Shown here piece by piece: positions 10,059-44,379 of a DNA stretch of 44,379 nt (positions are counted from its first letter, which is position 1; the number at the start of each line of letters is the position of its first letter). Source of the DNA: Clostridiales bacterium (GTDB lineage: Bacteria; Bacillota; Clostridia; Christensenellales; JAISNN01); NCBI GenBank assembly GCA_031275485.1, contig JAISOS010000040.1, positions 1 through 44,379 of the forward strand, in the 5' to 3' direction. Both the position numbers and the translations under genes were made by a program. Below the pieces are notes generated by a model, which worked only from the letters and a program-made list of their open reading frames with translations, ran no database searches and was not told the origin of the DNA.

Positions 10059-10442
10059 AAGACGTAAAAAAGCGGTTAAATGAAACGAAAACCGCAGTCC
10101 GTTGCTTTGGGAAAAGCGATAAAGCGTACGGAATAAAGGTGGCGGAAAAACATAAAAACGGTAGCTTTTTGAGAAAAAAGGCAATAAAAAGTGCGGGAAC
10201 GGCGGTTATTTTAACGTGAAAAGCACGTTAAAAATTGTGCGGGAAATTATATAAAATATGTAAAAAACGCGCGGAAAATTGTGTAAAAAACACGTAAAAC
10301 GCATGAAAGGCAAGTGAAAAACGCGCAAAAAAACATGTGGAAAAGCGTGTGAAAAATGTGAAAAAACGCATAAAAAACGGAGTGAAAAATTGCGTAAAAA
10401 ATGCGCGGAAAACGCGGTGAAAATTGCGGGGAGCGGGACGGA
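10059..10442. other. Low-complexity spacer before yraN
   Basis: From about 10205 to 10430 the sequence is a run of loosely repeated units such as GTGAAAAACGCG, GTGTAAAAAACACG and GCGGAAAATTG at 10-20 bp intervals. It looks like decayed slippage repeats and is not coding. No promoter with both boxes was recognised. Confidence 0.5.
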
Positions 10443-20379: not shown

Positions 20380-21096
20380 ATGCTTTCGCACGAGGAAACT
20401 ATGCGGCTTCTCAAACTTGCAAAGAACGGCGACGCCGACAGCAAGGCTTTGCTTGTCGAGCGGAATATGCCGCTGATAAAAAGCGTCGTCAGGCGTTACA
20501 GAAATAAGCGCGTCGAATACGACGATCTTATCCAAATAGGCGCGATAGGTATTATAAAGGCGATAAAAAATTTTAACGAGGACTATAACGTCCGATTTTC
20601 CACCTACGCCGTGCCTATGATTTCCGGCGAAATCAAGCGGTTTATACGCGACGACGGCGTCGTCAAGGTCTCGCGCTCTCTGAAAAGTCTCGCGATTAGA
20701 ATCGGCGTATTCATCGACGCGTACAAAAACGCGCACGGCAAGGATCCGGCCGTCCGCGAGCTTGCCGCCGAATTCGATATGAGCGAGGAGGACATAGTGT
20801 TCGCTCTCGACAGCTCTAAATTCCCGCTCTCGCTGTACGACAAGGCGGAAGGCGAGAACGGGCAATGCCTGATAGACAAGCTGGTCTGCGAGGACAATCA
20901 GGACGATATGATTGACAAAATGATGCTGAAAGACGTCATCGGACGGCTTCCCGAGCGCGAAAAAAAAATCATATTGTTCAGGTATTTCCGCGATAAAACG
21001 CAGAGCGAGGTCGCGGGCTTATTAGGCGTATCGCAGGTGCAAATTTCAAGGCTTGAGAACCGCATAATCGAAAAGATAAAAAAGGGCATAGTTTGA
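20380..21096 (+). CDS. sigF: RNA polymerase sigma-F factor, forespore-specific
   Basis: This 238-residue sigma-70 family protein is sigma F, the first forespore sigma factor. Region 2 is seen at YDDLIQIGAIGIIKAIKNF and RFSTYAVPMISGEIKRFIRD, region 3 at RSLKSLAIRIGVF onward, and region 4 at LPEREKKIILFRYF and SQVQISRLENRIIEKIKKGI. Assignment to sigF rather than sigG rests on position directly after spoIIAA and spoIIAB and before spoIIIAA. The ATG at 20380 follows GCGGGGGAACGGTGAAAT. A strong terminator lies 180 bp downstream, which separates it from the spoIIIA genes. Confidence 0.94.
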   Translation: MLSHEETMRLLKLAKNGDADSKALLVERNMPLIKSVVRRYRNKRVEYDDLIQIGAIGIIKAIKNFNEDYNVRFSTYAVPMISGEIKRFIRDDGVVKVSRSLKSLAIRIGVFIDAYKNAHGKDPAVRELAAEFDMSEEDIVFALDSSKFPLSLYDKAEGENGQCLIDKLVCEDNQDDMIDKMMLKDVIGRLPEREKKIILFRYFRDKTQSEVAGLLGVSQVQISRLENRIIEKIKKGIV

Positions 21097-21275
21097 GATC
21101 CGTAAAAACGCGTCCGCAGGGTCGCGGGCTTATCGGGCGCGCCGCGGATACGGATTTTAAGGCTGAGAACCGCTTAACCGGAAAGATAAAAAAGGGCTAC
21201 GCGGGAGAACGCTAAAAATTTCCGATCTGCGGAGGGGAGATTTCTTGGAGGCGCCCGGATAATCTAAAATTCCCT

Positions 21276-38164: not shown

Positions 38165-38899
38165 ATGAGAGATAATGCGGATTTGGTGGCGTTTGACAGG
38201 GAATATCTGAAAAGGGCGCGCGAATTAATTTTTTGCGGCATAGACAAGTCGGAGCGCGAATTGTCAATGGACGGCATAGACGGGGCGGAGCGCGGGTCAA
38301 GATTGCGCGTCGGCGGGGACGAAGTCGGGTGCGGGTTATTAGTCGGCGGTATGGACGAGGCGGGGCGCGGACCTCTTGCGGGACCTGTGGCGTGCGCGGT
38401 TGCGGTGATGCCGTTGGACGACGGGCTTATTGTCGGCGGCGCGGACGACAGCAAGAAAATTCCCGAAAAAAAACGCGAAATACTCTATGAGGCGATTGTA
38501 AAAAACGCCCTTTATTACAATATTCAATTTGTTTGGCAGGACGAAATCGACGGGATAAATATACTTAACGCTACTAAAAAGGGTATGCGCGCCTGCTTCG
38601 ACGCGTTGCCCGTAAAGCCCGACATATTGTTGATAGACGCCGTTAATCTCGATATAGCGGGCGGCGTCGCCATAATAAAGGGCGACGCCAAAAGCTATAA
38701 TATCGCCTGTGCCTCGATACTCGCCAAGGTCGAAAGAGACCGCCTTATGCGCCGGTACGACGCGGAATATCCGGGTTACGGCTTCGCGAGGCATAAGGGC
38801 TACGGCGTAACCGCGCATTACGAGGCGATTGCGCGGCTCGGAATAACGCCGCTGCACAGAAAGACGTTTTTATCGGGATTTAAGAACCTTTTTTTATGA
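38165..38899 (+). CDS. rnhB: Ribonuclease HII with repeated active-site segment
   Basis: This 244-residue enzyme removes RNA from RNA-DNA hybrids and misincorporated ribonucleotides. The functional core begins GGMDEAGRGPLAGPVACAV (from residue 61; D64 and E65 catalytic), with ADDSKKIPEKKRE, DAVNLDI and IACASILAKVERDRLM containing further acidic and basic residues, and HKGYGVTAHYEAI. Before the core, residues 25-60 form three imperfect tandem copies of the same segment: GIDKSERELSMD, GIDGAERGSRLRV and GGDEVGCGLLV. The first follows the usual N-terminal helix ending LIFCG, exactly where the active-site motif should start. Upstream ribosome site is weak. Confidence 0.93.
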   Translation: MRDNADLVAFDREYLKRARELIFCGIDKSERELSMDGIDGAERGSRLRVGGDEVGCGLLVGGMDEAGRGPLAGPVACAVAVMPLDDGLIVGGADDSKKIPEKKREILYEAIVKNALYYNIQFVWQDEIDGINILNATKKGMRACFDALPVKPDILLIDAVNLDIAGGVAIIKGDAKSYNIACASILAKVERDRLMRRYDAEYPGYGFARHKGYGVTAHYEAIARLGITPLHRKTFLSGFKNLFL

Positions 38900-39249
38900 A
38901 TTGAAACGCGCGTCTTTCGCACCCTTGCGGGTTCTTTCGCGTCTTTCACCTTTGTTCCCCTTGTTAACGGTCTTGCCGTTAATTGCGGAAAACGTCTTTA
39001 AAACCGCAAAAGCCTTTCGCAAATCCGACGTCTTAACTCATGAAAACGGGTTTAAAAAAATAAAACGGCGCGAAACGGGAATAAAAACGCGTAACGATGA
39101 ATGCGGACGTGTCGGATCTGGTCTGAAAACGGCGCGTCGGCATACTAAGAGCTTTCGGAACAGACGCGGATAAGCCTTTTCGCCGAAAAGGCTTATCCGC
39201 CAAGGCTTTGACAAGGCGAAACGGGAATAAAAACGGGGAGAGATAAACG
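38900..39249. other. Spacer before the MFS gene
   Basis: About 350 bp. Contains a perfect 15-bp hairpin at 39166-39200 and two exact copies of GCGAAACGGGAATAAAAACG at about 39071 and 39217. No gene recognised. Confidence 0.45.
39166..39200. repeat. Perfect 15-bp hairpin related to family 1
   Basis: GCGGATAAGCCTTTT (39166-39180), CGCCG loop, AAAAGGCTTATCCGC (39186-39200). The GCCTTTT core matches family 1; the flank and G run are missing. Confidence 0.65.
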
Positions 39250-40638
39250 ATGAACGAACGGGACTTGCGCTCGGACAAAGCATCCGAAAAAACGGGCGGA
39301 ACGTTTGAGGAAACACACAAAGAGACGGGAGCGGAAAACGCCTCTTTTTCGGAATCGGACAATGCGTCCGAAGGAGCGGGAAAAATATCCGAAAAGATCG
39401 GCGGGTCTTCCGAAAAGGCGGGCGCGGGCGCGCGCGGGCGTCGGAACGCCGCGCTGTTTTTGGGCGGGCAGGGAGTGTCGATGTTAGGCTCTATGCTCGT
39501 GCATTACGCGATAATGTGGAATCTTACGTTGGAAACGCGGTCCGGCTCGGTGATGATGCTGTTCGCCGTCGCCGCGCTCCTTCCCATAGTTTTTATATCG
39601 CCGTTCGCGGGCGTTTGGGCGGACAGGTACAACAAAAAATATCTGATAAACATTTCGGATTCGTGCATAGCTGCGGTCACGCTTCTTATGTCCGCGCTGT
39701 TTTTTTTCGGGATACGCGATATTTGGCTCTTGTTCGCCTGCGCGGTCATGAGGAGTTTGGGTCAGGGCGTGCAGGCGCCGTCCGTCGGCGCGCTCCTCAC
39801 CGAAATCGCGCCCGTCGATAGACTAAAAAAGCTCAACGCCGCGAACGCGGGAATACAAGCGCTCTGCAGTTTTGCCGCGCCTATGCTGTCGGGCGTAATC
39901 CTCTCTTTTATGAGAATAGAGGCGGTTATGGCGCTAGACGTGGCGACCGCCGCGATAGGCGTAAGCGTGGTGTTTTTCTTTGTCAAAACGCCGAAAAAAA
40001 CGCCGAAAAAATCAGGCAAAGACGTCGCCGGATATTTCCGCGAGATGAAAGAGGGAGCTCTGTACGTCGTAAAACATAAGTTTTTACTCAAGTTTATGGC
40101 TTTCGCCCTGCTTTTCAACCTCATACTTTCGCCCGCCACTGTGCTTGTACCCCTTCAAGTCGCGCGCAACTTCGGCGCGGAGGTGTGGCGGCTGACGGTT
40201 ACCGAGAGCGCGTGGTCGGCGGGGATGGTATTGGGCGGCGTAATTTTAAGTATTTGGAAGGGCTTTAAAAATCATACGTTCTCGATTTCCGTCGCGGCGG
40301 CGGTGTTCGGAACGGGGCTTGTTTGGCTTGGAATCGTCCGTGATATGTGGATTTATGCCGCCGTAAACGCCGTTATGGGTCTGTCTGCGCCGATGTTCCA
40401 GACGGCGACGGTCACGTTGCTCCAAACTAAAACCGACGCGGAATATGTCGGGCGCGTGTTCGGCGTTTTCACGATGATATCGAGCGCGGCGATACCGCTC
40501 GGAATGGTGCTGTTCGGTCCGCTTGGCGATGCAATTTCTATAGATTATATCTTTATCGCGACGGGCGCGCTTATGCTATTGTCGGGACTGCTATTAAATT
40601 TCAGTAAAACTATGAGAAAAGCGGGAGAACCGATTTGA
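39250..40638 (+). CDS. MFS-type efflux transporter with repetitive N-terminal tail
   Basis: This 462-residue protein is a major facilitator superfamily member of the MFS_3/enterobactin- and macrolide-exporter-like group, with about 12 membrane helices. The conserved loop after helix 2 reads PFAGVWADRYNKK near residues 118-130, and LGQGVQAPSVGALL and EYVGRVFGVFTMISS are typical of this group. A hydrophilic tail of about 64 residues precedes the first helix; it contains loosely repeated SEKTGG, SEKIGG and SEKAGAG units and is absent from ordinary members. The substrate cannot be predicted. GGGGAGAGATAAACG precedes the ATG. No regulator is adjacent. Confidence 0.87.
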   Translation: MNERDLRSDKASEKTGGTFEETHKETGAENASFSESDNASEGAGKISEKIGGSSEKAGAGARGRRNAALFLGGQGVSMLGSMLVHYAIMWNLTLETRSGSVMMLFAVAALLPIVFISPFAGVWADRYNKKYLINISDSCIAAVTLLMSALFFFGIRDIWLLFACAVMRSLGQGVQAPSVGALLTEIAPVDRLKKLNAANAGIQALCSFAAPMLSGVILSFMRIEAVMALDVATAAIGVSVVFFFVKTPKKTPKKSGKDVAGYFREMKEGALYVVKHKFLLKFMAFALLFNLILSPATVLVPLQVARNFGAEVWRLTVTESAWSAGMVLGGVILSIWKGFKNHTFSISVAAAVFGTGLVWLGIVRDMWIYAAVNAVMGLSAPMFQTATVTLLQTKTDAEYVGRVFGVFTMISSAAIPLGMVLFGPLGDAISIDYIFIATGALMLLSGLLLNFSKTMRKAGEPI

Positions 40639-40963: not shown

Positions 40964-41002
40964 CTAAGTTATGAATACTGATACGGATACGGAGTTATGA
41001 AT

Positions 41003-41674
41003 ATGGACACGGATATGAACGAGGGCGCGAATGTGAACGAGGACGCGGATATGAATATGAATGAAAATAAGACTGCGGATACGAATCGGCGCGGCTTGAC
41101 GGGGAAAAAAAATACGGGCGGCGGACGAGAAATAGCGTTTTGCGCGCTGTTCGCGGCGTTGATAAGCGTCGGGTCGTACATTAAGATACCGCTTCCAGGC
41201 GTGCCCGTGACGCTGCAATTTTTATTTACCAACCTTGCGGGAATAATGCTCGGCAAAAAATACGGCGCGGTTTCCGTGGGGGCGTTCGTCGCGCTGGGGC
41301 TTATCGGTTTGCCCGTTTTTTCGGGCGGCGGCGGCATAGGCTATGTCGTAATGCCGTCGTTCGGCTACATTTTGGGCTATTTGGCGGGCGCGTATTTGGC
41401 CGGACTGATTACGGAAAGGTTTAAAAGCCTTTCTTTAAAGTCGATTCTTACCGCGAGTTTCGCAAACCTCGCCGTGGTTTATCTGTTCGGCGTAACGTAT
41501 TTTTATTTCATTTCCGAGTTTTATATCGGGAACGCGGCGGACGCGAAAACCCTGCTCGTAAATTGTTTCCTTATATTCCTTCCGGGCGATATATTGAAAA
41601 TTCTTTTGAGCGCGCTCATTTTGAAAAAGGGAGGAGCTTTTTTTAAAAAAAATATACGGGGAAAATTTTTTTGA
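41003..41674 (+). CDS. bioY: BioY family biotin transporter substrate-binding subunit
   Basis: This 223-residue membrane protein is BioY, the substrate-binding S component of biotin ECF transporters. The core has about six helices with the conserved REIAFCALFAALISVGSYI, PLPGVPVTLQFLFTNLAG, GLPVFSGGGGIGYVVMPSFG and YILGYLAGAYLAGL. The first 40 residues are a hydrophilic Asp, Asn and Met-rich tail with repeated DMN, NED and MNMNEN units, unusual for the family. ATG 41003 is preferred over 40997 because GGAG lies 8 nt before it. No ATPase or EcfT gene is adjacent, so it may use a shared energising module or work alone. Confidence 0.93.
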   Translation: MDTDMNEGANVNEDADMNMNENKTADTNRRGLTGKKNTGGGREIAFCALFAALISVGSYIKIPLPGVPVTLQFLFTNLAGIMLGKKYGAVSVGAFVALGLIGLPVFSGGGGIGYVVMPSFGYILGYLAGAYLAGLITERFKSLSLKSILTASFANLAVVYLFGVTYFYFISEFYIGNAADAKTLLVNCFLIFLPGDILKILLSALILKKGGAFFKKNIRGKFF

Positions 41675-43795: not shown

Positions 43796-44379
43796 ATGAT
43801 AATCACATTTAAGCAAGACGGGAGCGCGGTATTTTTACGCGGCGAGGCTCTGTACAAGGGCAGTAACGGCGTTAATAACGTCGTTGTGCGTTGGGAGGAC
43901 GGCGCGTCCCCCGGGGTTGAAAGCTTGGTCGTCGAAGTCGAAACGGCGCGTGCGGACGGTCAGGCGAGCGGGTTTGTGCCGTGTACGGTCAATTCGCAGG
44001 CGGAGGGTCTCGAATACTACCGCCGTCTTACGGGATGGGAGCTTGCCATCGAGGGCGAATTACGCGTGACGGCGCGGTGGTATCACTCCGACAATCCGAG
44101 CGTACAAGCGGCGGCGGCGGTTTTGGCGTACGTCAACAACGGCAGGATTTCAAATATCGCCTTGCCGGACGGCGGCGGTTATGATAATTATATCGAACAG
44201 CTGAAAGCCGCGCTCGAACAGGCGAACGACGCGGTGCAAAAAGCCGTCGCGCAGACGGCACAGACCTATGTCGATACGTTAAAGGCGCAGGGCGTGTTCG
44301 ACGCGGATGCGCAAAAAGCCGCGCTCGAACAGGCGCTATCAGCCGCGCAATCGAGTATATCCGCCGACGCTAAAACAAT
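43796..44379 (+). CDS. Phage tail or baseplate-like protein, 3' end outside window
   Basis: An open frame of at least 194 codons runs off the window. It starts MIITFKQDGSAVFLRGEALY and continues with a beta-rich N-terminal domain of about 125 residues, including LTGWELAIEGELRVTARWY, then a glycine turn and a long alpha-helical, alanine- and glutamine-rich region with repeated QKAALEQAL-like segments, predicted coiled coil. This layout resembles N-terminal domains of baseplate upper or tail-fibre proteins of phages infecting Firmicutes, though no exact family can be named. AAAAGGAGCGAAAAGCG precedes the ATG. Its GC content returns to the level of the core genes. It may open a prophage or tailocin module to the right. 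Confidence 0.55.
   Translation, partial: MIITFKQDGSAVFLRGEALYKGSNGVNNVVVRWEDGASPGVESLVVEVETARADGQASGFVPCTVNSQAEGLEYYRRLTGWELAIEGELRVTARWYHSDNPSVQAAAAVLAYVNNGRISNIALPDGGGYDNYIEQLKAALEQANDAVQKAVAQTAQTYVDTLKAQGVFDADAQKAALEQALSAAQSSISADAKT

Follow-up and report, generated by a model that had tools for sequence, protein, structure and literature searches.

Bacterial RNases HII (PF01351), among them the solved enzymes of Thermotoga maritima (2etj, 3o3f), Staphylococcus aureus (5y9p) and Escherichia coli (7uwe), share with the rnhB product described here their catalytic domain, invariant residues and fold, but they lack the insert of ~37 residues, made of decayed copies of strand beta-1 and the DEAGRG motif, that precedes the active site in the present protein. 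Many in-frame insertions are thought to start as tandem duplications, the copies of which are usually erased. Rickettsia palindromic elements are in-frame repeats that form inserts of ~100 nt in housekeeping genes, and the rnhB insert resembles them in frame, size and type of host gene; unlike those elements, which are defined by a dispersed family with a palindromic core, it has neither family nor palindrome, and its copies come from the host gene. Small tandem duplications of tens to ~100 base pairs, similar in size to those seen here, arise in flap-processing mutants (yeast rad27, E. coli polA), although in the present genome PolA with its 5'-nuclease domain is present, so that at most its activity could be altered. 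In Plasmodium, conserved proteins carry low-complexity inserts and many housekeeping enzymes are enlarged by loop inserts, as many are here; in contrast to Plasmodium, the present organism is a bacterium, tandem duplication in frame is evident in its inserts, and the trend is missing from one sister species. A literature search of partial coverage returned no description of the pattern reported here, in which a conserved enzyme still carries, beside its working active-site segment, three copies of that segment in decay.

The gene was found in a window of 44,379 nt, the whole stretch of DNA that was analysed, from an uncultured gut bacterium of the Clostridia, and is present in a single copy in a genome that also encodes an RNase HI (features in Table 1). 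Its product matches PF01351 over residues 62-235 (E 8e-33; 114 bits against a cut-off of 25.8), and its best NCBIfam model is ribonuclease HII (E 9e-67). All four catalytic acids of an RNase HII (D64, E65, D158, D174) and its GRG motif (G67-R68-G69) are there and are invariant in a 45-sequence alignment. An AlphaFold2 model gave the RNase HII fold, with a core pLDDT of >95 and E. coli RNase HII (7uwe_C) as the best PDB match (E 7e-20; TM 0.91, normalised to the target). Nearly all solved relatives align to the protein only from about residue 59 on, that is, from the fourth of the repeat units described below. The model has a helix at residues 4-23 and a strand, from unit 4, at residues 60-66, and the intervening residues 24-58 have low pLDDT (block means of ~41-70), so that in the model units 1-3 form a loop of low confidence outside a core that is ordinary and catalytically complete. 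The product is most likely an ordinary working RNase HII with a loose N-terminal loop, in which unit 4 would be the sole active copy.

Table 1 Features of the rnhB locus (positions in the window)
Feature	Position	Strand	Evidence or remark
rnhB, RNase HII, 244 aa, with in-frame insert	38165..38899	+	Pfam, NCBIfam, copy count
N-terminal helix (MRDNADLVAFDREYLKRARE), homologous to the N-terminus of genus relatives	38165..38224	+	Alignment; model helix 4-23
Exact 36-nt period, units 1 and 2 and end of helix codons (GGCGCGCGAATT / GGAGCGCGAATT)	38215..38294	+	Self-match score 20, lag 36; direct repeats
Unit 1, LIFCGIDKSERE, decayed: catalytic E and GRG glycines gone	38225..38260	+	25/36 nt as in unit 4
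Unit 2, LSMDGIDGAERG, decayed: catalytic E gone	38261..38296	+	26/36 nt as in unit 4; 36-nt lag to unit 1
Unit 3, LRVGG-DEVGCG, decayed: one-codon deletion, R to C; D-E kept	38303..38335	+	23/33 nt as in unit 4
Unit 4, LLVGGMDEAGRG, intact strand beta-1 and active-site motif	38336..38371	+	Invariant G62, D64, E65, G67, R68, G69

The sequence-only reading had described the segment between the N-terminal helix and the active-site motif as four motif-like units at residues 25-73 (38237-38383), namely GIDKSERELSMD, GIDGAERGSRLRV, GGDEVGCGLLV and GGMDEAGRGPLAG, repeated also in the DNA, and both the units and their coordinates proved exact. A better phase starts at the strand (LIFCGIDKSERE, LSMDGIDGAERG(SR), LRVGG-DEVGCG and LLVGGMDEAGRG), and the natural repeat unit is strand beta-1 plus the GxDEAGRG motif, i.e. 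the catalytic segment. At the DNA level, units 1-3 show 69-72% identity to unit 4. A direct repeat of 23 nt has copies at 38236, 38272 and 38347, the second and third being 87% and 78% identical to the first, and 38215-38258 recurs as 38251-38294 at a 36-nt lag that extends back into the last helix codons. Tandem Repeats Finder did not call an array in the region because the copies are too diverged; owing to the same divergence (~30%), the duplication breakpoints cannot be fixed. The full set of invariant motif residues is present only in unit 4, which bears out the earlier view that the last copy alone is intact. In units 1 and 2, almost every motif change is one base away from the intact codon, and nonsynonymous against synonymous codon differences to unit 4 number 8 to 1 in unit 1 and 6 to 3 in unit 2. 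Both units also have a derived GGG-to-GAG change (G to E) at a motif position that is G in unit 4 and in every relative, and this common change together with the exact 36-nt lag suggests that one decayed copy was itself duplicated, in agreement with the serial tandem duplication put forward from the sequence.

Translation might instead start within the insert. Its in-frame codons ATG 38267 and TTG 38303 each have GGAG ~12 nt upstream, and several of the solved RNases HII have just a few residues ahead of the motif; with such a start, the repeat would be mostly a decaying leader and the protein of near-normal length. We regard this as unlikely, as relatives of the genus begin with a sequence homologous to the upstream helix, AGGAAA precedes the helix's own ATG, and the frame is maintained across all units. 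The two codons could nonetheless give rise to truncated products in which part of the insert is missing.

The insert is absent from 111 related loci (~100 distinct, a few being counted twice), including those of four species of the same genus, each species being represented by one assembly. In these relatives the helix runs directly into a single motif, at a median of 14 residues from the helix signature and in none at a longer distance; in the present protein, unit 1 lies 15 residues from the signature and unit 4 lies 52, so the first unit sits where the active site normally begins, as had been noted from the sequence. All other sequences of the 45-sequence alignment share one gap over approximately residues 19-57. 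Since relatives are without the segment, it is not an ancestral domain, and among the genomes compared it is specific to the present species, itself read in a single assembly. As expected of an intragenic tandem duplication, the copies stand head to tail, resemble the adjacent host sequence and are missing in relatives.

The insert could alternatively be an accessory element under selection, with spare D-E-like motifs that serve to bind metal or nucleic acid or to control entry to the active site. This would fit its position immediately before the catalytic strand and the state of unit 3, in which D-E and GxG remain and four synonymous and three nonsynonymous codons set the unit apart from unit 4. 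With this near parity and the D-E retained, unit 3 may not be fully unconstrained. We nevertheless hold such a function to be improbable, given that no relative has the insert, that catalytic residues are lost from units 1 and 2, that the insert is without a fold in the AlphaFold2 model, and that unrelated enzymes of the same genome carry repeat-like inserts too.

An insert of random origin with a high content of G, D, E and R might look like the motif by chance, and many other inserts in the genome are indeed low-complexity and unlike their flanking motif. The likeness here is, however, far beyond chance. None of 20,000 protein shuffles of the insert reached its three-unit score of 63 (mean 14.3), and none of 5,000 codon shuffles reached its 73 identities to unit 4 (39.3 ± 4.4, maximum 58), while other rnhB segments gave at most 47. 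Against a profile built from 44 relatives only, units 1, 2 and 3 rank in the top 3.7e-4, 1.2e-4 and 1.6e-5 of the sampled proteome (for unit 3, a one-gap match among 11-mers), and among ~275,000 proteome 12-mers this gene alone has pairs of such hits within 37 residues. A pattern covering units 1 and 2 also matches unit 4 and nothing else in the 44 kb, with 0.02 matches expected from shuffles. A chance origin is accordingly scarcely credible. Equally far-fetched is a mobile element of the Rickettsia palindromic type landing in frame in coding genes, which the size of ~110 nt and the frame would suit, and which we rejected because the insert is single-copy in a genome holding no dispersed family (best other match 28 nt, E 0.02), has no inverted repeats that we could find, and matches the host gene itself.

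The origin that we favour, and consider very probable, is a series of in-frame tandem duplications, the extra copies of which then decayed, as one product of a species-level excess of such events. A stretch of ~36 nt encoding strand beta-1 and DEAGRG would have been duplicated serially in tandem, with the reading frame kept at each step. Unit 4, continuous with the catalytic domain, would have stayed under purifying selection, while the three upstream copies, as a free loop joining the N-terminal helix to beta-1, would have been stripped of the catalytic glutamate, the arginine or the glycines through point mutation and codon loss. The same excess of short duplications would also have given rise to repeat-like in-frame inserts in other conserved enzymes: frame-breaking duplications would be removed, and in-frame ones in loops would survive, with one copy conserved and the others decaying.

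Inserts and tandem repeats were compared across genome samples of ~0.1-0.95 Mb, with genome-wide counts in the present species taken from ~0.95 Mb of its 2.03 Mb and repeat density from 0.63 Mb. Degenerate tandem self-matches, counted at lags of 18-150, amounted to 26 per 100 kb here, 102 in the sister species G004, 12 in the sister species G003 and 2.5-16 in five order relatives, and shuffled sequence gave almost none at these lags. Within coding DNA, the density was 20.7 per 100 kb against 1.4-10 in the five order relatives. Lags within open reading frames were multiples of three in 82 of 94 cases, and those in noncoding DNA fell in all three phases.

Conserved proteins gave a similar picture. 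Expressed as inserts of at least 12 residues per 10,000 aligned residues in reciprocal-best pairs with genome G006, the insert rate was 11.65 here against 2.85 in G006, 20.6 against 0 for G004 (18 pairs only), 1.77 against 1.77 for G003 (35 pairs) and 2.70 against 2.03 for four pooled order relatives used as controls. The present species thus has ~4 times as many such inserts as order-level relatives; G004 exceeds it, and G003 is at the baseline. Half of 72 inserts (50%) showed tandem self-similarity in their DNA (score of at least 13), as against 8% of 212 control segments drawn from the same proteins (p = 6e-11 for the score distributions), and all 36 lags of the 36 self-similar inserts were in frame. 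The oddity in rnhB hence seems to be an instance of a habit, seen across the genome, of acquiring in-frame tandem-duplication inserts, and the sequence-only reading, supported at this locus, was incomplete in that rnhB is one of many genes with such inserts. By itself rnhB is a curiosity, and a genome full of similar inserts is the more interesting part.

In several of these other proteins, named here from our own reading of the sequence, the duplicated stretch appears to be a conserved segment of which one copy is good. They include one that we take to be UvrC (..GGGKAPVTGPKRS.. / ..GGGKATITCPKRG..), a presumed RNA methyltransferase (TGKGILRHIVARNF / DKGNLRYNAARNF), a protein that looks to us like a glycoside hydrolase (FEGFRGLIPKG / IERLRGLILKG) and a putative sugar-nucleotide transferase (YDFGKDLLPKLADGG and following). 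A presumed QueA has an insert of ~130 residues here and ~80 at the same site in G004, which is absent in G001, G002 and G003. The open frames of PolA, MutL and RecJ are the longest of the genus in G000 or G004. PolA of G000 (L219 from 12109, 943 aa) has loop inserts with in-frame repeats (DTDKTDKSGVAGNTDNTDKSG) after the 5'-nuclease domain. In G004, a young tandem duplication of 111 nt (L112 5433-5633, 80/90 identical) closely precedes the start of that species' own rnhB.

As to the cause of the excess, loss of mismatch repair or of a flap nuclease was considered and rejected: MutS, MutS2, MutL, the PolA 5'-nuclease, ExoVII, RecJ and RNase HI are all present in the genome, so that the excess does not stem from loss of any of the genes tested. 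Candidate causes are a factor that is altered instead of absent and weaker selection in a population confined to a host. We would put at about even the chances of a broader proposition, in which short tandem duplications arise, or are tolerated, at a strongly raised level in certain species of the genus, and dozens of their conserved enzymes, DNA repair proteins included, are growing by in-frame duplication of segments of their own, of which one copy is retained while the rest decay, as a running constructive-neutral experiment in a bacterium. Dozens of parallel cases in one genome and a sister species without the trend make a natural comparison, which informs what raises the rate of small duplications and how proteins absorb them.

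Further repeats were observed elsewhere in the window. The N-terminus of an MFS transporter (39250-39450) has an extension with the degenerate repeats SEKTGG / SEKIGG / SEKAGAG, with DNA lags of 84 and 105, and ahead of its start (39070-39247) a 32-nt stretch (GCGAAACGGGAATAAAAACG...) recurs 146 nt upstream in what resembles a decayed copy of the translation start region. Short degenerate units (ATGAATATGGACACGGATATGAACGAG...) are repeated at lags of 18, 26 and 36 at the start of a BioY-like gene (40967-41060), and an A/T-rich array of degenerate GTGAAAAACGCG-like units at several lags (24-145) occupies 10216-10423. Two adjoining stretches of 45-55 nt at 21009-21218 repeat at lags of 110-111, forming a degenerate duplication of ~110 bp. 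An exact 21-nt repeat (AAAGCCGCGCTCGAACAGGCG) with a lag of 111 lies in frame at 44204-44335 in an open reading frame of ~194 aa.
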